Positions 169 through 48,806 of a stretch of 51,409 nucleotides of DNA are shown one piece after another. The stretch covers positions 1 through 51,409 of the forward strand of contig PNKH01000053.1 of assembly GCA_013822345.1 (NCBI GenBank). The letters are read 5' to 3'. Source of the stretch: Isosphaera sp. (GTDB lineage: Bacteria; Planctomycetota; Planctomycetia; Gemmatales; Gemmataceae). Below the pieces are notes generated by a model. It searched no databases, was not told the origin of the DNA, and saw only the letters and a program-made list of their open reading frames with translations. Position 1 is the first letter of the stretch. Every line of letters begins with the position of its first letter. The position numbers were made by a program, and so were the translations under genes.

Positions 169-1581
169 ATGTCCGTCCCGAACTCGCCCGAGGAGCTCCT
201 CCAGCTGATCCGCAAGAGCGGGATGGTGGACGAGGGGCGGCTGGCGGCGTACCTGCGGCGGGGGTACGCCCGCGGGCCGGCCGCCGACGTCCGGGAGTTC
301 GCCGACGACCTGATCCGCGACGGGGTCCTCACCTACTTCCAGGCGGAGCAGTTCCTGCTCGGGAAGTGGCGCGGGTTCACCATCGGGAAGTACAAGCTGC
401 TGGAGCGGGTCGGGGTCGGCGGGATGGGCCAGGTGTTCCTGTGCGAGCACCTGTTCCTGCGGAAGCGGGTGGCGGTCAAGGTGCTGCCGCCGGCCAAGGC
501 CGAGCAGCCGGCGGCGCTGGGCCGGTTCTACCGCGAGGCCCGGGCGGCCGGGGCACTGGACCACCCGAACGTGGTCCGCACCCACGACATCGACCAGGAC
601 GGGACGCTGCACTTCATCGTCATGGACTACGTCGACGGGGCGAGCCTGTCGGAGGTGGTGAACAAGGTCGGGCCGCTCCCGGTCGGGCGGGCGGTGAGCT
701 ACGCCCGGCAGGCGGCCCTCGGCCTCGACTACGCGTTCCGCAACGGGATCATCCACCGGGACGTGAAGCCCGGGAACATCCTGGTCGACCGGCAGGGGAC
801 GGCCCGGGTGCTCGACCTCGGGCTGGCCCGGTTCGTCAACGACCACACCGACAACCTGACGGTCAAGTACGACGACAAGATCGTGCTCGGGACGGCCGAC
901 TACGTCGCCCCGGAGCAGGTGGCGAACAGCCACGCGGTGGACGTCCGGGCGGACGTGTACGCCCTCGGGGCGACCCTGTACTTCCTGCTGGCCGGGCAGC
1001 CGCCGTTCCCGACCGGGACGGTGTCGCAGAAGCTGCTGTGGCACCGGACGAAGGAGCCGGCCCCGCTCCGGTCGCTCCGCCCGGACGTGCCGGACGCCCT
1101 GGCCGCGGCCGTCGCCCGGATGATGGCGAAGGACCCGACGGCCCGGTTCCAGACCCCCGGCCAGGTGGCCGCCGCCCTCGACCCGTTCCTGCCGGACGAG
1201 GTGCCGCCGCCGGGGCCGGACGAGATGCCGGAGCTGAGCCCGGCGGCCGCCGAGGTGGCGGAGGAGATCGCGGCCGAGCCCGAGGCGGTCGCGGCCGCCG
1301 CCGAGACGGGGCGCGCGGTGGCCACCGCGCTGGCCGCCCCTCGGGCGGCCGCCGGCCCGTTCGCCGCCCCGGCCCCGTTCGGGCCGTCCGCCGCGTCGCC
1401 GTGGGGGCCGCCACCGGCCCGCCGCCCCGGCCCGGAGCGCCAGCCCCGCCGGTTGCCGGCCGAGATCACCCCGCCGCCGGCCGACGCCCCCCCGGCCCGT
1501 CAACCGGTGTCGTGGGCGCTGATCGCGGCCGTCGCCGTCGCGGTACTCGCCGTCGCCGCCCTGATCGTCACGAACATCTAA
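169..1581 (+). CDS. Membrane-anchored Hanks-type Ser/Thr protein kinase
   Basis: A 470-residue protein. Residues 1-75 form an all-helical N-terminal segment common on planctomycete kinases. The catalytic domain follows (about 75-345): glycine loop VGVGGMGQV near 81-89, the ATP-anchoring Lys in VAVKVL near 104, the catalytic loop HRDVKPGN near 195, and DLGLARF near 217, where DLG replaces the usual DFG. An APE-type motif (APEQ) follows. A Pro/Ala-rich linker leads to one transmembrane helix at the extreme C-terminus (about 448-470) that leaves almost no external domain, so the kinase is cytoplasmic and tail-anchored. The ATG at 169 was chosen because it gives a complete N-terminal segment; the ribosome site is weak. 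Substrates are unknown. The gene ends just before a large inverted repeat shared with the convergent DUF255 gene. Confidence 0.9.
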   Translation: MSVPNSPEELLQLIRKSGMVDEGRLAAYLRRGYARGPAADVREFADDLIRDGVLTYFQAEQFLLGKWRGFTIGKYKLLERVGVGGMGQVFLCEHLFLRKRVAVKVLPPAKAEQPAALGRFYREARAAGALDHPNVVRTHDIDQDGTLHFIVMDYVDGASLSEVVNKVGPLPVGRAVSYARQAALGLDYAFRNGIIHRDVKPGNILVDRQGTARVLDLGLARFVNDHTDNLTVKYDDKIVLGTADYVAPEQVANSHAVDVRADVYALGATLYFLLAGQPPFPTGTVSQKLLWHRTKEPAPLRSLRPDVPDALAAAVARMMAKDPTARFQTPGQVAAALDPFLPDEVPPPGPDEMPELSPAAAEVAEEIAAEPEAVAAAAETGRAVATALAAPRAAAGPFAAPAPFGPSAASPWGPPPARRPGPERQPRRLPAEITPPPADAPPARQPVSWALIAAVAVAVLAVAALIVTNI

Positions 1582-1590
1582 CGGCGGGTG

Positions 1591-1689
1591 GTAGGGTGGG
1601 CCGAGCCCGGCGCTTCGCCGGGCGAGTCCCACCAGACGTAGGCGGAGGTGGGACTCGCCCGGCGAAGCGCCGGGCGAGTCCCACCCTAC
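1591..1689. repeat. Long inverted repeat between convergent genes (GTAGGGTGGG family)
   Basis: Arms of 43 bp at 1591-1633 and 1647-1689 are complementary except for a short mismatch block, with a 13-base loop. Each arm contains its own smaller palindrome (CCCGGCG-ctt-CGCCGGG). It sits between two converging stop codons, so transcripts from either side would fold into a strong stem and it may act as a two-way terminator. A close copy with the same outer sequence lies at 48826-48920, which marks it as a dispersed repeat and not just a local terminator. Confidence 0.85.
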
Positions 1690-1701
1690 GACTTCGACCC
1701 G

Positions 1702-4056
1702 TCACTTCACCTTGAGCGTCGACGGCAAGAGGCACGTCCCCTCCTTGCACGCCACCACCTTCACCCGCACCTCCACCTCGCCGTCCGCGGCGGCGAAGCT
1801 GCCGGTGATCGTCACCGTCCCCTCGTAGATCGCGTGCTTGTCTTTCCCCTCGCCCGTCTCCTTCCCCTTCGGGTACACCGGCACCGACTTCACCTCCTTG
1901 CCGCCGACGAACACCGCCACCGCCGTCTCGGCGTCGGCGAGCGTCTCGTTCCCGACCGGGTTGGCGTAGACGTGCCACCCCGCCGCCACCGTCAGCGTCA
2001 GGGTGAACGACCGCCGGCCGCCCGCCGCCGGGTCGAGTTTCAGCGCGGCGGTCATCACGTCGGCCGACAGCCGCGGGTTCTTCGGCGGGTCGACCTTCCC
2101 CGGGGGCGGCCCGGCCACGTCGCCGGCGGCCAACAACTCGTCCAGGCACTGGGCCATCGTCGCCAGCGACGCCGGGTTCGTCCGCAGGGTCAGGGCGAAC
2201 CCCTTGACCGTCTTCTCGCACCGCTCCCGGTACGCCTTGTCGCCGGTCTTCGCGGCCAGGCGGAGGAGGTTCCGGGCGGTCTGCGAGTTGCCGGCCGGCT
2301 GCACCCCGTCGTACGCGTCCTTCCCGCGGGCGAACAGCTTCTCCCCGTCGCTCGGGGTGTAGAAGAACCCCGGCCGGTCGCCGTCCCCGTGGAACCTGAC
2401 CGACAGGTCGGTCAGCTCCTTCGCCGCGTCCAGCCACCGCTTGTCGCCGGTCGCGTCGTGCAGGTTCAGCAGGCCGTGGGTCAGGTACGCGTAGTCGTCG
2501 AGGAAGGCGGTGCCGCGGGCGGCCGGCTTCTCGCCCGGCACCGCCGCGTACAGCCGGAACAGCCGGCCGTCCTTGTCCCGCATCTTGGTCAGCACGAAGT
2601 CGGCGGCGGCGGCCGCGGCGGCGACCCACTCCTTGTTCCCGAACACCTGGCCGGCCCGGGCGTACCCGGCGATCATCTGCCCGTTCCAGGCCGCGATCAC
2701 CTTGGTGTCGAGGAACGGCTTCTCCCGCTTCGCCCGGACGTCGAACAGCTTCTGCTTCAGCGGTTCGAGCTTCGCCAGCAGCTCGGCCTCGGTCAGCTTG
2801 CGGTCCGTGGCGACCTCGGCGAGCGGCTTCGGCAGCCGGAGGATGTGGAACTTCCCCTCGAAGTTCGGGGCGTCGACCCCGTAGACCGCGTTGAAGAACC
2901 CGGCGTCGGCCCCGAGAACCTTGACGATCTCGTCCTTCGTCCAGACGTAGAACTCGCCCTCCTGGTGGTTGGTGTCGGCGTCGAGGGCGGAGTAGAACCC
3001 GCCGCCCGGGCCGGTCATCTCCCGCTTGACGAACGCGAGCGTCTCGGCGACCACCCGCTTGTACAGCGGGTCGGGGGTGGCGGCGAACGCGTCGGAGTAC
3101 AGCTCGGCGAGCTGGGCGTTGTCGTACAGCATCTTCTCGAAGTGCGGGACGGTCCACGTCCGCTCGGTGCTGTACCGGTGGAACCCGCCGCCGAGGTGGT
3201 CGTAGATGCCGCCCTCGGCCATCTTCCGCAGGGTCAGGTGAACGGCCTTGGCCAGGTCGTCCTTCCCCTTCCGCTTCGACTGCCCGAGGAGGAACTGCCA
3301 GACCGGCGGGCGGGGGAACTTCGTCCCCTGGAACTTCCGGGCCGGGCTGCCGACCCCGCCGTACTCGGGGTCGAACTCGAACCCGTCGGCGGCGCCGTCC
3401 ACGAGTTCGCGGTCGAGCTTGACGATGGCGATGAGCCGGGAGTTGCGGTCGAGGGCGTCGGCGGTCAGGGTGGCGATGTGGTCGGCCTGCTTCTCCAGCC
3501 CGGCCCGGTCCTTGTCCAGCTCGACCACCTTGGCCAGGATCGACTTCATCCCGGGGATGGTGTCGTCGCCGACCTTCTTGTCCTCCGGCGGGAAGTAGGT
3601 GCCGCCGAAGATCGGCTTGCCGTCCGGGGTGAGGAACATGGTGAGCGGCCACCCGCCCTGCTGGCCGACGACGGTCAGGGCGGTCATGTAAATGTCGTCG
3701 AGGTCCGGCCGCTCCTCCCGGTCGACCTTCACGCAGACGAAGTGCTGGTTCAGGAGCTTGGCGATCTCGGGGGAGGCGAACGACTCCCGCTCCATGACGT
3801 GGCACCAGTGGCAGGCCGAGTACCCGACGCTGAGGAAGATCAGCTTGTTCTCCTTCTTCGCCTTGGCGAACGCGTCCGGCCCCCAGGGATACCAGTCGAC
3901 CGGGTTGTGGGCGTGCTGCAGCAGGTACGGGCTGCTCTCCTTGGCGAGCCGGTTCGGCGGCCCTTTGGGGGCGTCCTTCTTGGGCTCGTCGGCCGGGGCG
4001 GGGGTCAGGGCGACGGCGGCCGTCAGGGCGGCCAGGCCGAGCGGGCGGAGGAGCAT
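1702..4056 (-). CDS. DUF255 thioredoxin-domain protein (YyaL/SSP411-like) with DsbD-like C-terminus
   Basis: A 784-residue protein. The ATG at 4056 gives a signal-peptide-like N-terminus ([17 protein letters not shown], then an Ala-rich cleavage region), so export is likely. Next comes the family hallmark: [15 protein letters not shown] and, in the thioredoxin fold, the redox motif SACHWCHVM, followed by DREERPDL. The middle is the long alpha/alpha-barrel part of the YyaL/spermatogenesis-associated-20 family ([16 protein letters not shown]). The last 100 or so residues are not usual for the family and resemble the N-terminal DsbD interchange domain: a beta-sandwich pattern with GWHVYANP and two Cys spaced as in [11 protein letters not shown] periplasmic role in disulfide or sugar-related chemistry is inferred; the biochemical function of DUF255 is unsettled. 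The stop lies 12 bases beyond the inverted repeat. Confidence 0.88.
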
Positions 4057-4133
4057 GGCGGGTCTCCGGGGAGGGCACGGGGAATGATATGCGGCGGCCC
4101 ACACGCCGTGTTCGCTTGACCCGCGCGGTGCGG

Positions 4134-4139
4134 TATAAT
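4134..4139 (+). promoter_or_regulatory. Candidate -10 box for the secreted-protein gene at 4177
   Basis: A perfect TATAAT stands out in GC-rich DNA 38 bases before the ATG at 4177. A TTGACC lies upstream at 4116-4121, but the gap of 12 is too short for a standard pairing, so the -35 element is uncertain. Confidence 0.4.
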
Positions 4140-4176
4140 CGCGCCACCTGCCAGCCCTCCCCCACCAGGTCCCGCC

Positions 4177-5055
4177 ATGACCCCCCTCGCCCGTGTCGCG
4201 GTGTTCGCCCTCCTCCTCCCGGCCGCCCACGCCCAGGACGCCAAGTTCGACGCGGCCAAGGCCAGGGCGACCGCCGCCGCCAACCTGAAGAAGGCCGGGG
4301 TCGGCAAGCCGACCGTACACGAGACCGGCCAGTTCGTCCTCGCCACCACCCTGCCGGAGGAGAAGGCCAAGGCGCTCGGCGAGGTGCTGGAGAAGGTCGT
4401 CCCGGTCGCCCGGAAGGCGGCCCAACTGGAGGCGAAGGAGCAGCCGTGGAAGGGGAAGCTGACCGTCTACTACCTGCCCGACGGGTCCGACTTCAAGGGG
4501 TTCTTCCGGAACGTCGTGATGGACCAGCCGGGCGGCACCTACTACAGCCTGCGCGGGGACGAGCCGTTCCTGGTGGACCCGGCGGACGTGCCGGCGAAGG
4601 CGACCGAGGCGGACCAGTTCGCGGCCGCCGCGGCCGTCGTCGCCGGGGCGGTGCTGAAGGGGAAGGCCGGCACCGCCGCGCTGCCGGACTGGCTGACCGA
4701 CGGGTTCGGCCGGGTCGCCGCGGCCCGGGCCGAGGGGCTCGCGTCGAAGCGGTACCAGGCGTACAAGGCGGCGTCACGGGCGCTGGCGTTCGGGCCGAAG
4801 GGGGGAAAGCCGCCGGCCGTCACCGAGCTGTGGGCCGAGACGAAGCCGGCGGGGGCGGAGGTGCTGGCGGCCAGCTTCGCCGACTACCTCGCGTTCGGCC
4901 CCGGCGCGGCGAACTTCCCGAAGTTGGTGGCCGGGTTCCGCCCGGACGAGAACGGCAACACCCCCGCTCCCGCGGCGGCGTTCGAGGCGGCCGGGTGGAA
5001 GGACCTCGGGATGCTCGACGCGGCGTGGCGGAAGTGGGCGGCGACCGGGAAGTGA
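4177..5055 (+). CDS. Secreted protein of unknown function, peptidase-MA-like fold possible
   Basis: A 292-residue protein starting with a signal peptide ([18 protein letters not shown]). I do not recognise a named family. The segment [16 protein letters not shown] (about residue 167) resembles the helix after the zinc site in gluzincin-like DUF1570-type proteins (WxxEG pattern), but no HExxH motif is present anywhere, so it would be a non-catalytic relative if related at all. The C-terminal third is Ala/Gly-rich with [13 protein letters not shown] at the end. It is transcribed alone, divergent from DUF255 and convergent with the SixA-like gene; its stop codon forms the first bases of a 41-bp inverted-repeat arm. 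Confidence 0.75.
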
Positions 5056-5152
5056 AGAGAGGGGGTGAACGGGTGAGCGGGTGAAGGGGTGACAAGACCG
5101 GTGTTGTCTTCGTCACCCCTTCACCCGCTCACCCGTTCACCCCCTCTCTTCA
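5053..5152. terminator. Perfect 41-bp inverted repeat, putative bidirectional terminator
   Basis: Arms at 5053-5093 and 5112-5152 are perfectly complementary. The stem continues inward with AAGAC/GTCTT around a one-base bulge, leaving a loop of about 7. The arms contain the stop codons of both converging genes (TGA at 5053 on the plus strand; the stop of the SixA-like gene at 5137-5139 on the minus strand). The arm is built of repeated GGGTGA units (GGTGAACGGGTGAGCGGGTG), unlike the flanking coding sequence. No U-tract follows. Confidence 0.7.
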
Positions 5153-5664
5153 GAGTACCACGAGGGCGTCACCACCCACTCCAGCACCCCGGTCCCGGGG
5201 CCGGGGTCGCCGTCGAACCGGACGCACGCGGCCGCCGCCTTCGCCAGCCCGACCGTCCCCGGGGCGGCCTTGAGCAGCCACTCCAGGTAGCCCCCCAGGT
5301 CCGGCATGTGCCCGACCGCCGCCACCGCCTTCTCGGCGTGCGACGGGAACCGCGGGCCGAACGCCGGCAGCCCGGCCAGGAACCCGGACAGCCGCGCCGG
5401 CTTCAGCCGGCCCGGGGCCAGCTCGTCGCACGTCACCGGGCGGGCCTCCGGGTTCCACACCGCCAGCAACTCGGCGGCCGTCTGGTACGCCCGGACCAGC
5501 GGGCTGGTCGCGACCGCGTCCACCGCCAGGCCGCGGCGGGCGAACGCCCCGGCCAGGGCCCGGCAGTGCCCCCGGCCGAGGGCGGTCAGCGGCCGGTCGA
5601 AGTCGCCCGCCACCCCGCCCCCCGCCTCCCCCGCCTCCGCGTGCCGGATCAGGTACAGCAACAT
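5137..5664 (-). CDS. Histidine phosphatase family protein, SixA-like phosphohistidine phosphatase
   Basis: A 175-residue protein, the usual length for SixA. It opens with MLLYLIRHAEAG, the RHxE phosphohistidine motif, so His8 should be the phospho-acceptor. The second catalytic His lies in VAAVGHMPDLGGYLEWLL, where GHMPDL matches the SixA GHNPxL pattern. SP(L)VRAYQTA, near residue 55, matches the family S-x-x-x-R-A-x-Q-T block. SixA removes phosphate from His of phosphotransfer proteins in two-component relays; cytoplasmic location is expected because there is no signal peptide. The target relay cannot be read from the neighbourhood. The last three codons lie inside the inverted repeat shared with the previous gene. 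Confidence 0.87.
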   Translation of the reverse strand: MLLYLIRHAEAGEAGGGVAGDFDRPLTALGRGHCRALAGAFARRGLAVDAVATSPLVRAYQTAAELLAVWNPEARPVTCDELAPGRLKPARLSGFLAGLPAFGPRFPSHAEKAVAAVGHMPDLGGYLEWLLKAAPGTVGLAKAAAACVRFDGDPGPGTGVLEWVVTPSWYSEERG

Positions 5665-5859
5665 CCCGGACTCCTGCGTCGCACGGCCCCGTCCCGCACG
5701 CTACAACCCACCCGCCCCGGCGTCGACGGGAGAATCGGAGCCGGGCCCCTCACAACCTTCACACATCCCAACCCCGGCTCCCCTTCCGACGGCCGGCCCG
5801 AACCCGTAAATTAACCGGAGCGCTCCACCCACCCGGCCGAAGGACCTGCGAACCCCTCC

Positions 5860-7689
<1,830 letters not shown>

Positions 7690-7709
7690 GCCAGCGGCCC
7701 GCGCCCCGT

Positions 7710-9500
7710 CTACTTCACCTTGCGGTACAGCCGCCAGCGGTCGCCGGGGGCGTCACCGCCCGTGACCAGCCGCCACCCCGGGACATCCCGGCCGGCGCGG
7801 AAGTCGCCCTCGGGGTCGAGCCCGGGGGCGGACAGGGTCAGCACCGCCCACTCGTCGAGCAACACGTAGTCGGCCCCGGCCCGGGCCAGCACCCCCACGA
7901 ACGACTCACCCGGCTGCCGCCCCGTGGTGATCAGGGTCGGCGTGTCGAGGTACTTCCCGCCCCCGGCCGCGAGCAGCGGGTGGGCGTAGGCCACCGTCAC
8001 CGAGCTGGTGGCGACCACCGTCTGCCCCGGCCGGTTCACCTCGTCCCGGTGGGCCCACAGCCGGCGGACGGCGTCGGCGTGGGTCTGCGGCTCGGTCACC
8101 GCGGCCGCGGCGTAGTACCGCGGGGCCGCGACCACCGCCCCGACCATCAGCAGCGGCAGGGCCAGGCGGACCCGGCCGAGCAGCCGCCACCGCGCCCCGA
8201 CCGCCGCCGCCGCCGCCCCGGTCAGGGCCATCAGCACCACCCCGAACGCCAGCAGGTAGCTCGGCCGCGGCCGCTGGGTGAGGATCACGAGCGGGACGAC
8301 GGCGGCGACCGCGAACATCGCCGCCCACCCGACCGCCCGCCACGCCGGCGTCCGTTCGCCACCCTCCCGCCGGGCACGCCGGGCGCAGCACGCCCCGGCC
8401 GCCCAGACCCCCAGCACCAGGACCGACCCGGCCACCGCCCGCCGGCTGTTCAGCCGGGGCAGGACGCGGTGGTCGTAGTCCGGCGAGACCGACCCGGCGG
8501 CCCGGTTGAACAGCAGCAGTTGGAGCCCGTTCGGAGTGAGCGACAGGTTCCACGTGAAGTGCTCCCACACCGCCGCCGGGTTCGCCGCGACCATCTCCCG
8601 CAAGGACGGCTCGCGGCTCCCGAAGTGCTCCTGCATCAGCCCGTGGCACTCGACCCACGGGCTGAGCGTCCACTCCGGGTGCCGCTGCTGGTGCCCGAAC
8701 GCGTACACCTGGGCCATGTTCAGCGTGTGCTTCTCCTTGAGCGCCCCGCGCAGCTCCGGGTACTTCAGGTACGACGCGGCGTAGGTCGCGTAAACGACCG
8801 CCGCGGCCGCGGCCAGGGCGGTCGCGTACGCCACCGCCGTCCGCCACCGCCCGGGCCCGTCCCCGCGCCCGGCCCGCCGCCACTCGTACCCGACCAGCAC
8901 CAGCCCGAGCAGCCCGAACGCGACCGACAGCTCGTTCCGGACGAGCACCGCCGACGCCCCGAGCACGGCCAGCCCCGCCCCCCGCCGCCACGGCCCGGCC
9001 GCGGTCAGGAACAGGAGCCACGACGCGAGCACCGGGATGACCGCGAACAGGTGCACCTCGTACAGGGTGTTGAACACGATCGGCAGGCACGCCCACCACG
9101 CCGCGCAGGCCCACGCCACCCCCGGCGGGAGGAGCTGGCGGAGCACGGCGAGCACCAGCACCGCGGCGGCCACGACGATCACCAGCCGGTGCGCGAACGT
9201 GGCCCAGACCGGGTCCGGGTTGAGGAACAAGAACGACCCGTAGAACGCGGTGTACAGCGGGGACCAGATGACGTTCACCTCCCCGCCGGCGTACCACCGG
9301 TACGCGTCCGCGAAGTACGACATGGTGTCGCCGACGGTCACGTCCCGGAGGGCCCACATCCCCCAGACGACCTTCAGCTGGAGGGCCAGGAGCAGGGCGA
9401 ACGCCACCGGCCGCGACTCGAACGCCGCCACCACCCGCCCCCAGGCGCCGGCCAGGGCCGGCCGACCGGCCGTGAGCCGTAGCCGCGGGACCGTGTTCAT
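7710..9500 (-). CDS. Polytopic membrane protein, GT-C (PMT/ArnT-like) glycosyltransferase-type
   Basis: A 596-residue protein with roughly ten hydrophobic helices. The first loop after TM1 contains the acidic segment RDVTVGDTMSYFADA, in the position where GT-C enzymes carry their catalytic Asp. Later loops hold ALKEKHTLNMAQVYAFGHQ and a Trp/His-rich stretch. The C-terminal 120 residues (after about 480) are soluble and look like the globular domain of PMT-like proteins. These features suggest transfer of a sugar from a polyprenyl-phosphate donor on the outer membrane face. The next gene upstream encodes a dolichol-phosphate-mannose-synthase-like GT2, which fits a donor-maker/donor-user pair, but the two are not translationally coupled (46-base gap). 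No specific substrate can be inferred. Confidence 0.72.
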   Translation of the reverse strand: MNTVPRLRLTAGRPALAGAWGRVVAAFESRPVAFALLLALQLKVVWGMWALRDVTVGDTMSYFADAYRWYAGGEVNVIWSPLYTAFYGSFLFLNPDPVWATFAHRLVIVVAAAVLVLAVLRQLLPPGVAWACAAWWACLPIVFNTLYEVHLFAVIPVLASWLLFLTAAGPWRRGAGLAVLGASAVLVRNELSVAFGLLGLVLVGYEWRRAGRGDGPGRWRTAVAYATALAAAAAVVYATYAASYLKYPELRGALKEKHTLNMAQVYAFGHQQRHPEWTLSPWVECHGLMQEHFGSREPSLREMVAANPAAVWEHFTWNLSLTPNGLQLLLFNRAAGSVSPDYDHRVLPRLNSRRAVAGSVLVLGVWAAGACCARRARREGGERTPAWRAVGWAAMFAVAAVVPLVILTQRPRPSYLLAFGVVLMALTGAAAAAVGARWRLLGRVRLALPLLMVGAVVAAPRYYAAAAVTEPQTHADAVRRLWAHRDEVNRPGQTVVATSSVTVAYAHPLLAAGGGKYLDTPTLITTGRQPGESFVGVLARAGADYVLLDEWAVLTLSAPGLDPEGDFRAGRDVPGWRLVTGGDAPGDRWRLYRKVK

Positions 9501-45165: not shown

Positions 45166-45317
45166 GACACTTCGCGCCGCCGCGCGCCAACTCCGCCAGC
45201 GACTCAACACCGCCCCTCGCGTTGGACTTCCGGCCGGGAGTGACTTACGGTTCATCCGACCCATTCTCGGAACTCCTTCCCCCGGCCGGCCGTCACCGGC
45301 GGGGTGCAGGGTCGCCC

Positions 45318-48300
45318 ATGAACTGGCTCCGCGAACCGGACACCGAGCCGCTCCCCGGGTACCGGCTGATCGAGCCGATCGGCACCGGCGGGTTCGGCGA
45401 GGTGTGGAAGTGCGTCGCCCCGGGCGGCATCCACAAGGCGATCAAGTTCGTCTACGGCAACCTGAACGCCCTGGACGGGGACGACGCCCGGGCCGTCCAG
45501 GAGATGAAGGCGCTGGAGCGGGTCAAGCAGGTCCGCCACCCGTTCGTCCTGTCGATCGAGCAGATCCAGGACGTCGGCGGGGAGCTGCTGATCGTCATGG
45601 AGCTGGCCGACAAGAACCTGCACGAGTGCCTGGTCGAGTACCAGGGGGCCGGCCGGCCCGGCATCCCGCGCGACATCCTCCTCGGGTTCCTCGACGACGC
45701 CGCCCAGGGGCTCGACCACCTGATCGAGCGGCACGGGCTCCAACACCTCGACGTGAAGCCGCGGAACCTGTTCACCGTCGCCGACCGGGTCAAGGTCGCC
45801 GACTTCGGGCTGGTCAAGACGCTGGAGCGGTCCAGCTCGTCCGGGCTGATGGGCGGGGTGACCCCGATCTACGCCGCCCCGGAGACGTTCCAGAACAAGA
45901 TCAGCAAGCACTCCGACCAGTACAGCCTGGCGGTCGTGTACGTCGAGCTGCTGACCGGGAAGCGGCCCTTCGCCGGGAAGAACATCCGCCAGCTCGCCCT
46001 CCAGCACATGACCGAGCCGCCGGACCTGTCCATGCTCCCGGAGGCGGACCGGCCGGTCGTCGCCCGGGCCCTGGCCAAGAACCCGGACGACCGGTTCCCG
46101 ACCTGCACCGCGTTCGTCCGGGCGCTCGCCGGCCGGCCCGAGGGCGGCGGCAGCGCGGTCCTCGAGCCGTCCGCCTGGGCCCGGGCCGGGCGGACCGTCC
46201 ACGACGTCGACCTGACCCCGGCCGCCCCGCGCGGCGGCACCCCCGGCCGGGTCGCGTCGGCCGGCCGGTCGGTCGCCGACCTGGCCCTCGACGACCTCCC
46301 GACCACCCGGCCGGACGACGGGGTGCTCCGGCCGACCGTCCTGATCGGGATCGGGAGCTTCGGCCGGCGGGCGCTCCAGGAGATCCGCTGCCGGCTGACC
46401 GACCGGGTCGGGGACGTGACCCAGGTGCCGAGCTTCCGGTTCCTGTACGTCGACTGCGACCCGGACGCGGTCCAGAAGGCGATCGGCGCCCCGCCGGACG
46501 TGGCGCTGGCCCCGGACGAGGTGTTCCACGTCCCGCTCCAGCCGGTCACCGGGTACCGCCGCCGGCAGCTCGACCGCATCCTCGACTGGCTCCCGCGGGA
46601 GAAGCTGTACGCCATCCCGCGGAACCTCCAGGCCGGCGGGTCCCGGGCCCTCGGCCGGCTCGCGTTCTGCGACAACTACCTGCGGTTCGTCACCCGCCTG
46701 CGCCGCGAGCTGCAGATCGCGACACACCCGGAGTCGATGGCCGACTCGGCCGACCAGACCGGGCTGCCGCCGCGCGACAACGTCCCGCGGGTGTACGTGT
46801 TCGCCGGGGCGGGGGGCGGGTCCGGCGGGATGCTGATCGACCTCGGGTACGCGGTCCGCCGGGTGCTGAACCGCGTCACCTCGGCCGACGCCCCGGTGAC
46901 CGCGTTCGTGTACGCCTCGGCCCCGTCCGACCCGGCCACCGGGGACCACGAGCTGGCCAACCTGTACGCCGGGATCACCGAGCTGAACCACTACGCCGAC
47001 CCGGACGTGACGTTCGCCGCCAGCTACGGCGGGCCGGAGGGGCCGCGGGTCGAGGCCCGCGGGCTGCCGTTCACCGCCGCCTACCTCCTGCCGATGCCGG
47101 AGCGGACCGCGGCCGCGTTCCGGGACTGCGTGTCGCACCTGGCCGGGTACGTCGCCCACGACCTGACCACCCCGCTCGGCCCGGCCCTGGAGCGGATCCG
47201 CCGCCAGCCGCCGGGGTACGACCGCACCCCGTTCCGCACGTTCGGCACCTACGGGGTGTGGTTCCCGCGCGGGCTGCTGCTCCGGGCGGCGGCCCAGCGG
47301 ATCGGGCTGCGGCTCATCAAGCAGTGGCAGGCCGACCTGCCGCCGGTCGACCTCCGGCCGGTCGACGACCTCGTCGCCCGGGTGGTGGCCGACCCGCGGC
47401 TCCGCCCGGACGCGGTCCGGGGGCAGGTCGAGCGGGAGGCGGTCCGCGGGCAGGAGGGCGGGCCGGCCGACCAGGTCGAGCGGTGGCTGTCCGGGCTGGA
47501 GGGGCAGCTCAACCCGACCGCCCGGCGGTCGGAGGCCGGGCCGTGGTCCCGGGCGGTGTGGGACCAGGCCCGGGACCTGATCGGCACCCGCCCGACCGGG
47601 GACCAGGACAGCACCGTCCGCCGCAGCCGGCTGTCGAAGCTGCTGGAGGAGGCGGTGCGGCGCGCGGCCGACGCCTGGGGGAACGAGTTCGCGGCCGCCG
47701 CCCGCCCGCTGGAGGAGCTGCCCGGGCACCGGCTCGGGGCGGTCGAGGCGGCCCTGCGGCGGTTCGCCGGGTGGTGCGGGGACGCGGCGGCCGCCGCCGA
47801 CAAGGCGGTCGAGAACTACGGGGTGAAGGCCCGCGAGGCCCGGACCGACGCCCAGGCGGCGCTCGACGCCTGCCAGGCCGGGAGCGGGACGTTCAGCTTC
47901 TTCGGCGGCCGGTCCGGGCGGAGCATGCGGCACTTCCTCGACCAGGTCCGGGCGTTCGCCCGGCTGCGGCTGGAGGAGGACCTCGCCGACGCGACCGCGA
48001 AGTTCTACCGGGCCCTCCGCGCCCGGATGGAGGACAAGCTCCGCGACCTCGCCGGGTGCCGGACCCGGCTGGAGCAACTCGTCCGGGCGCTGGAGAACCC
48101 GCTGCTGAACCTGCCGGTGTCGTCGGACACCCCGGTGGCGATGTCGGAGGAGGCGCTGCAGCAGACGATCCACCCGACGAACACGCTGCAGGTGGTGCTG
48201 CCGAGCGGGGAGACGCACCTGGACCGGTCGGCGAAGCGGGTCGTGCAGGCCCTCCGGCCGGACGACCTGGGGCGGCTGGAGGTGGCGCTACAGAAGTTGG

Positions 48301-48806
48301 TGCTGGAGCCGCGCGGCGGGCTGGTCACCCTGTGCCGGCTGAACGCCGACATGCTCCGGACGCTGGTCGCCCCGATGGTCGAGCAGACGACCGCGTTCCT
48401 CGGCGACTTGCTGCCGGTGACGGACGTGACCGAGGTGGAGACCTCTGCCGCGGCGGCCCGGCGGGTGGAGTTGTCCGCCCGGGTCGAGGACTACCACCGG
48501 CGGGCGGCACCGGCGGCGGGCGAGCCGGAGGTGGACGAGCAGACGTTCGTGCTGGTCCCGGACAGCAACCCCGGGCGGGACTACGCGGACCTGGTGGCGC
48601 GGACCCTGCCGGACGCCCGGACGGTGCCGGTGAGCGGGTCGGCGACGGACCTGATGTTCTGCCGGGAGCACGGCTGCCTGCGGGCGGACGAGCTGGCCGA
48701 GCTGCTGGCGAACTGCCGGCCGGCGTACTACCAGTCCCTGGCCGACCCGCAGACCGCCCCGCACGCCCGGTACGACGTGACCGAGTGGATGCCGCTGTCG
48801 GAGTGA
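45318..48806 (+). CDS. Ser/Thr kinase fused to a tubulin-like (Tubulin_2-type) GTPase domain
   Basis: A 1162-residue protein from ATG 45318. Residues 12-280 are a kinase: YRLIEPIGTGGFGEVWKC (loop about 20-28), IHKAIKFVYG, HLDVKPRNLF (142-151, HLD in place of HRD, catalytic Asp kept), VADFGLVK, and APETFQNK. After a linker, from about 334 a tubulin/FtsZ-like GTPase begins: TVLIGIGSFGRRALQEI (first nucleotide loop), FRFLYVDCDPDA, and the G-box-type loop VFAGAGGGSGGMLIDLGYAV (about 493-512), then YASAPSD and LYAGITELNHYADPD. The remaining 500 residues are helical, with a Trp/Lys-rich coiled region and an ordered C-terminus (SATDLMFCREHGCLRADEL). No membrane helix. The combination suggests a kinase that controls, or is controlled by, a nucleotide-dependent scaffold. 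Confidence 0.85.
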   Translation: MNWLREPDTEPLPGYRLIEPIGTGGFGEVWKCVAPGGIHKAIKFVYGNLNALDGDDARAVQEMKALERVKQVRHPFVLSIEQIQDVGGELLIVMELADKNLHECLVEYQGAGRPGIPRDILLGFLDDAAQGLDHLIERHGLQHLDVKPRNLFTVADRVKVADFGLVKTLERSSSSGLMGGVTPIYAAPETFQNKISKHSDQYSLAVVYVELLTGKRPFAGKNIRQLALQHMTEPPDLSMLPEADRPVVARALAKNPDDRFPTCTAFVRALAGRPEGGGSAVLEPSAWARAGRTVHDVDLTPAAPRGGTPGRVASAGRSVADLALDDLPTTRPDDGVLRPTVLIGIGSFGRRALQEIRCRLTDRVGDVTQVPSFRFLYVDCDPDAVQKAIGAPPDVALAPDEVFHVPLQPVTGYRRRQLDRILDWLPREKLYAIPRNLQAGGSRALGRLAFCDNYLRFVTRLRRELQIATHPESMADSADQTGLPPRDNVPRVYVFAGAGGGSGGMLIDLGYAVRRVLNRVTSADAPVTAFVYASAPSDPATGDHELANLYAGITELNHYADPDVTFAASYGGPEGPRVEARGLPFTAAYLLPMPERTAAAFRDCVSHLAGYVAHDLTTPLGPALERIRRQPPGYDRTPFRTFGTYGVWFPRGLLLRAAAQRIGLRLIKQWQADLPPVDLRPVDDLVARVVADPRLRPDAVRGQVEREAVRGQEGGPADQVERWLSGLEGQLNPTARRSEAGPWSRAVWDQARDLIGTRPTGDQDSTVRRSRLSKLLEEAVRRAADAWGNEFAAAARPLEELPGHRLGAVEAALRRFAGWCGDAAAAADKAVENYGVKAREARTDAQAALDACQAGSGTFSFFGGRSGRSMRHFLDQVRAFARLRLEEDLADATAKFYRALRARMEDKLRDLAGCRTRLEQLVRALENPLLNLPVSSDTPVAMSEEALQQTIHPTNTLQVVLPSGETHLDRSAKRVVQALRPDDLGRLEVALQKLVLEPRGGLVTLCRLNADMLRTLVAPMVEQTTAFLGDLLPVTDVTEVETSAAAARRVELSARVEDYHRRAAPAAGEPEVDEQTFVLVPDSNPGRDYADLVARTLPDARTVPVSGSATDLMFCREHGCLRADELAELLANCRPAYYQSLADPQTAPHARYDVTEWMPLSE

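Follow-up and report, generated by a model that had tools for sequence, protein, structure and literature searches.

A planctomycete protein kinase fused to a tubulin-like domain with a shortened T4 signature loop

Contig PNKH01000053.1 of the planctomycete Isosphaera sp. (assembly GCA_013822345.1; class Planctomycetia, order Gemmatales, family Gemmataceae), analyzed as one stretch of 51,409 nucleotides and referred to below as the window, encodes an 1162-residue protein in which a Ser/Thr kinase is joined to a tubulin-like domain of the Tubulin_2, or FtsZl1, type. The protein belongs to a separate group of paralogues, here called clade A, whose members in the window's family have a T4 signature loop one residue short in the tubulin-like half. 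The explanation we favor, though tentatively, is a soluble Ser/Thr kinase, one of the kinase-FtsZl1 proteins of planctomycetes, whose tubulin fold would self-associate to form a scaffold and would no longer work as an ordinary GTPase. The architecture has precedents; what makes the protein a variant worth experiment is the change in the loop across the clade, combined with an apparently split C-terminal subdomain.

The gene occupies positions 45318..48806 of the + strand as an open reading frame (ORF) without an internal stop. A kinase and a Tubulin_2-type domain in a single ORF of this length had been proposed in an earlier reading of the same DNA (the sequence-only reading), and Pfam bears the proposal out, with both domains far over their cut-offs. 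Pkinase (PF00069) matches residues 15–260 (45360..46097, + strand; E 7.4e-31, 107.9 bits, cut-off 31.7), where the catalytic residues are intact, and Tubulin_2 (PF13809) matches residues 341–667 (46338..47318, + strand; E 3.3e-31, 109.3 bits, cut-off 27). From the Pfam match, a structure model and fold matches, the latter region comprises the nucleotide-binding core and S7-H9, with elements named by their order.

In tubulin, the nucleotide is contacted through its phosphates by T4 and through its base by an Asn. Two strings had been singled out earlier as tubulin/FtsZ-like nucleotide loops, and the domain alignment places both: the T1-like loop IGIGSFGRRALQEI, with conserved glycines, at residues 343–356 (46344..46385, + strand), and AGAGGGSGGML, the T4 signature loop, at residues 496–506 (46803..46835, + strand). 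Both loops are thus present, but the glycine-rich string is one residue below the GGGTGSG-type length of the normal tubulin signature. The shortening is seen in the stretch from S4 to H4, which reads VYVFAGAGGGSGGMLIDL in the studied protein and VYIFAAAGGGTGSGMLVDL in the sister family. Its length is 18 in each of the 48 distinct clade-A sequences from the window's family that could be scored, compared to 19 in all five sister-family clade-A sequences and all 53 other Tubulin_2 sequences; the count is based on 119 aligned domains from which identical or contained ones were removed, and two further clade-A sequences were incomplete. The clade has a FastTree support of 0.97. The studied loop, GGGSGG, departs from the active-GTPase signature GGGTG(S/T)G, and the loop Thr is retained in only three of the 48 sequences. 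The two other kinase-tubulin copies in the same genome have a GGTGGG loop of normal length. Because the key residues of the kinase are invariant while the T4 loop is shortened, the kinase half looks intact and the tubulin half looks altered in its phosphate loop.

As judged from the alignment, a loop shortened in this way is evidence against the usual filament dynamics driven by GTP in the clade-A paralogue. The sequence-only reading had suggested phosphorylation-controlled assembly of a cytoskeletal or scaffold structure, which is possible. Some evidence would fit a genuine cytoskeletal polymer that is driven by GTP and switched through the attached kinase: the model matches a tubulin fold, and within clade A none of the columns for the T1 glycines, D379, D381, and N548 has more than one exception. 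Asn548 (46959..46961, + strand), the putative equivalent of the base-binding Asn of tubulin, is found in every one of the 59 clade-A family rows, a count that includes duplicates. The normal-length loops of the two other copies make a GTP-driven mode credible for those copies. For the clade-A protein we nevertheless consider it rather unlikely, given a loop that is one residue short in every clade-A family sequence scored and has mostly lost its Thr. The T7 catalytic loop motif of FtsZ and tubulin GTPases is NxDxxD/E; no such motif was seen at residues 611–630, where the position of T7 was placed by element order only. Within the literature searched, which covered few subscription journals, we found no description of the shortened loop, no study of a split subdomain or of the structure of the family, and, when searching for degenerate tubulin signatures, nothing on the kinase-FtsZl1 family. 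Elsewhere in the dataset, a divergent kinase-tubulin protein (L050:7899-11339, genome G039) has a strongly aberrant loop, SESLATG, of normal length.

The predicted structure supports the assignment of the fold. A model of residues 331–1162 reached a mean predicted local distance difference test score (pLDDT) of 87.7 and a predicted template modeling score (pTM) of 0.79, and the full-length model a mean pLDDT of 83.2 and pTM of 0.64, with the linker disordered. A check of this kind had been proposed with the original suggestion of a tubulin/FtsZ-type fold, and the suggestion holds, as the model matches whole CetZ and tubulin folds. CetZ2 was the top Foldseek match against the PDB (E 1e-4). Among the matches listed by VIA-align 2, the archaeal tubulin-superfamily protein CetZ (3zid_B) was the best and so the closest solved fold (Z 26.5, root-mean-square deviation 3.2, 294 residues aligned); FtsZ 2r6r reached Z 22.2 and tubulins Z about 21–22, with at most 343 aligned. 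The CetZ chains differ in that they have about 330–340 residues in the matched entries, no kinase, and no 400-residue insertion, and identity is 12–16%. With the sequence profile of the tubulin domain, searches of solved structures returned sub-threshold matches only (best E 0.39), eight of nine being FtsZ or CetZ, with the CetZ entry labeled FtsZ there.

In the numbering of the shorter model, the alignments listed span residue ~7 to 792–832, and residues 342–740 are mostly helical. Residues 7–341 allow at most 335 positions, and some alignments reach 336–343 residues; therefore, some aligned residues lie past model residue 341, and alignment ends as far as 832 point to the last part of the model. 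The order of elements runs S7 (residues 636–648 of the protein), H9 (651–671), and, after a long helical stretch, strand-helix-strand-strand (1074–1122). Together, these alignments and this order suggest that the C-terminal subdomain of tubulin is present in full, with a helical insertion of ~400 residues splitting it; since VIA-align 2 gives no more than the two end residues of each alignment, the mapping is our inference. The insertion, residues 672–1073 (47331..48536, + strand), is nearly all-helical and coiled-coil-like in both models, with one short strand near 957–959. The strand-helix-strand-strand unit at residues 1074–1122 (48537..48683, + strand) is, by model secondary structure and order, the proposed S8-H10-S9-S10. 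Among the 36 rows obtained at E ≤ 10 when a C-terminal profile was searched against solved structures, ribonuclease H, designed or helical proteins, and hemagglutinin HA2 predominated. The top match, 7bqq (E 3.5e-4), covers 88 profile positions of the helical region and was set aside, and a Foldseek likeness to alpha-pore-forming toxins (best E 4.3e-3) was ascribed to the long helices.

The favored explanation can be laid out as a series of steps. The tubulin-like module and the helical arm would drive self-association into a dimer, an oligomer, or a short filament. This would juxtapose kinase domains and permit trans-phosphorylation of the Ser/Thr-rich activation segment (about residues 171–182), and the assembly could then recruit substrates. 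With its changed T4 loop, the clade-A module might bind nucleotide statically, bind one other than GTP, or bind none. Given that change, assembly would not be timed by GTP hydrolysis, and for this reason the protein would be a structural signaling scaffold and neither a division ring nor a dynamic motor of the cytoskeleton. A more specific version, which we regard as possible but doubtful, is an ancient kinase-tubulin protein turned, in this family, into a pseudo-GTPase scaffold with a complete tubulin fold, a C-terminal subdomain split by the helical arm, and a lost phosphate signature, whose nucleotide-independent polymerization switches its own kinase on.

Several results weigh against the explanation we favor. 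The altered T4 loop remains rich in glycine and may therefore retain some binding of nucleotide. Sixteen of the 53 sequences outside clade A also drift in their letters from the normal-loop pattern used, although none is shorter; on the aligned sequences, it is therefore the change in length alone, not the drift in letters, that is special to clade A. The alignments behind the two structure models were shallow, with 41 and 39 sequences. Finally, clade A showed neither a conserved partner in an operon nor a substrate in the 60 stretches and the window or in the 48 named loci, many of them short; a survey for conserved neighbors, as proposed at the outset, thus gave no constant clade-A partner.

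If the more specific version is true, an FtsZ-less cell would have only about three proteins of the tubulin superfamily, this one among them and tied to the unusual internal organization of these bacteria; those found in the window's genome are all kinase-joined, and no FtsZ was found there. Because copies with normal-length and shortened loops occur in one genome, a likely GTPase can be compared with an apparently non-GTPase kinase scaffold inside a single cell, and it becomes concretely testable whether a tubulin fold can persist for assembly without a nucleotide cycle.

The kinase half shows every sign of conservation. K43, E62, H143-x-D145-x-K147-x-x-N150, D162-F163-G164, and D200 are invariant across 39 clade-A rows, and each of these key residues is kept in at least 64 of 66 rows of the wider kinase-Tubulin_2 set. 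The kinase domain resembles those of PknA/PknB-type bacterial Ser/Thr kinases (7naa, PknA, and PknB chains are the top PDB sequence matches), which differ in having a membrane-helix-like stretch; no hydrophobic stretch of membrane-helix type is present in the planctomycete protein (top 19-residue mean 1.2). The NCBIfam equivalog model PknB_PASTA scores 92.7, far below its cut-off of 450. Using five orthologues, dN was 0.05–0.13 for the kinase and 0.12–0.30 for the tubulin domain, well below a dS of 0.43–1.96 (nonsynonymous and synonymous divergence by a simple Nei-Gojobori count, with dS partly saturated), and both domains are therefore under purifying selection. The linker that separates them (residues 274–333; 46137..46316, + strand) is disordered, with pLDDT < 50 in the full-length model, and has the lowest identity among the parts compared. 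The ATG start is plausible, with an in-frame TTG upstream at 45222; the aligned Met1 of orthologue rows is partly by construction, as rows were trimmed to the nearest upstream Met.

The fusion has a narrow distribution. Tubulin_2 occurs in 48 of the 59 genomes searched, commonly as three copies within the window's family, and the window's own genome has three, all joined to a kinase. A survey for the same architecture, another step proposed in the sequence-only reading, recovered it in all 66 Tubulin_2 genes from 26 genomes, a set made up of 60 stretches chosen around Tubulin_2 matches plus the window. Twenty further stretches added 22 Tubulin_2 genes, 20 with a kinase; the exceptions are one gene cut by a contig end and one kinase-less FtsZl1 gene (L143, genome G005). 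In a phylum-wide sample, Tubulin_2 was matched in 14 of 294 genomes, with a kinase seen in four (G000, which is the window's genome, G047, G056, and G342); in the other ten, three of them weak matches under the cut-off, no kinase was seen in the available open frame. Based on these counts, the kinase-tubulin fusion is concentrated in the window's class, above all in its order. The kinase-less gene at L143 (locus 1441-8348) adjoins a large ORF of 1103 residues without assignment, has a Ppx-GppA-like ORF nearby that falls below the Pfam cut-off, and may represent the canonical FtsZl1 operon type.

In a tree of the 66 proteins, clade A, with the studied gene, is separate from the other copies. 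A clade-A C-terminal query (threshold E ≤ 1e-20) hit 38 of the order's 44 genomes, each of them once, and matched nothing in the other 15 genomes searched. The order genomes lacking it are G015 (68% complete), G029 (84%), G032 (100%), G036 (99%), G040 (93%), and G041 (87%). A clade-A query also led to 48 named loci, of which 46 could be placed in the tree, all in clade A. Of these 48, 41 showed a kinase; the rest are six loci that start at a contig end and L140, an incomplete frame near a contig end. Clade-A orthologues also appear in metagenome-assembled genomes labeled Bacteroidales (L137) and Singulisphaera (L112), labels that are probably binning or naming errors.

This single-copy, non-patchy occurrence across the order bears on whether the protein could belong to an anti-phage or conflict system, akin to GTPase-centered systems that contain tubulin or to MADS/PD-T4-6 kinases. 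PADLOC does report matches to mad6 and PD-T4-6, and, according to passages of PMC7159879, firmicutes and actinobacteria have GAP1-N2 GTPase systems with tubulin components. However, the PADLOC matches (among the best 25) are confined to residues 13–313, that is, the kinase and the start of the linker, and the NCBIfam MAD6 model NF047741 scores 69.4 bits against a cut-off of 460, well short of a full-length MADS/PD-T4-6 equivalog. Nor was a vWA, GTPase, OmpA, or known effector domain found in the seven flanking window ORFs scanned. We regard a role in conflict as very improbable.

The absence of FtsZ, which the sequence-only reading had given as background, is consistent with our searches. Over the 59 genomes PF00091 gave a single match, inside a Tubulin_2 protein (G019), and hence no genuine FtsZ, with controls positive in 13 of 14; there was no match in the window's genome at E ≤ 0.001, and no Pfam match to PF00091 in the studied protein at E ≤ 1. 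These results leave room for a protein that replaces FtsZ in division. Eleven of the 59 genomes, however, have neither FtsZ nor Tubulin_2 (G032, G044, G045, G048–G050, G052–G054, G057, and G058), including G032, a member of the window's family rated 100% complete from a draft in 190 contigs, and the 99% complete G036 has one weak Tubulin_2 match. Because of these eleven genomes, kinase-tubulin proteins cannot serve FtsZ-less planctomycetes in general as their division machine. Also weighing against replacement, Tubulin_2 was matched in 14 of the 294 phylum-sample genomes, and FtsZ is said, in a passage of PMC11032199, to be absent from Planctomycetota at large. As a substitute for FtsZ the protein is hardly credible, the idea being largely refuted and contradicted as a general one; a division role in those planctomycetes that have kinase-tubulin proteins is possible.

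The gene had been presented as the window's best candidate for an undescribed system, which does not hold, as the architecture was in print for Planctomycetes in 2010, 2023, and 2024. According to the sections available, Makarova and Koonin (2010; PMC2875224) defined FtsZl1 and noted four planctomycete members with an extra N-terminal kinase, a 2023 paper likewise notes the kinase in Planctomycetes (PMC9871819), and a 2024 survey ranks a tubulin-like domain as the commonest associated domain of solely cytoplasmic Ser/Thr kinases (PMC11032199); between those planctomycete kinases, as that survey's sections describe them, and the studied protein there is no architectural difference, and those sections say nothing on the loop, the paralogues, or the fold. 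Excerpts of PMC4672568 list Gemmata massiliana with FtsZl1, those of PMC9879509 mention Tubulin_2 in Borg elements only, and neither PMC8195603 nor PMC8567305 gave a match for tubulin or FtsZ. The studied protein shares the FtsZl1 domain by profile (PF13809), and in both models the domain is followed by the coiled-coil-like helices at 672–1073, much as the 2010 description, in its relevant part, has a coiled-coil, mostly helical C-terminal region after the domain. It differs in its short T4 loop and in its neighborhood, which lacks the operon with vWA, GTPase, or OmpA genes that is typical of the majority of FtsZl1 genes but does not define them. That part of PMC2875224 also reports no detectable similarity of the C-terminal region to known C-terminal domains, whereas our model suggests a split tubulin C-terminal subdomain.

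Upstream of the gene, the window encodes a DUF1559 protein, one ORF without assignment, and a sulfatase; downstream, on the opposite strand, lie a 93-residue ORF without assignment and ftsH. We rejected ftsH as a partner, as it is convergent, occurs at part of the clade-A loci only, and convergent genes do not form an operon.

Neighbors of the other paralogues are leads for those paralogues and are not evidence for the clade-A gene. In five genera of the family (genomes G019, G026, G027, G028, and G030), a paralogue outside clade A is directly followed on the same strand by the sole scpA of the genome (L083:11216-15491, L085:5136-9365, L045:6205-10481, L061:9995-14295, and L154:6075-10607), with a gap of at most about 30 bases or an overlap, by the gene calls; the identity of scpA was confirmed by Pfam in two of the five. 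In three genomes of family f5, a ParA/MinD-type ATPase gene lies upstream of another kinase-tubulin paralogue (L051:6756-11614, L064:7894-13638, and L066:7653-12960), adjacent once and one gene away twice. Such neighbors would fit a role in chromosome organization or segregation, in which the protein scaffolds or phosphorylates SMC-ScpAB or ParA-type machinery. We judge this improbable for the studied gene, as neither neighbor is seen at clade A, scpA is located elsewhere in the compared genomes of genus g1, and the five scpA cases may be a single inherited event.

In 16 genomes, a 4-HFC-P synthase (MfnB-like) gene lies upstream of a kinase-tubulin gene, mostly of clade B, and divergent from it (L033:6340-7026 in one genome, with corresponding loci in the 15 others); we set it aside as a functional partner, as it looks like conserved gene order only. 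FHA domains read phosphothreonine, and in other planctomycete families the kinase-tubulin gene has genes for an FHA-EAL protein and an AAA-type ATPase nearby (L052:3220-11296, L063:5279-11324, and L065:8363-18038).

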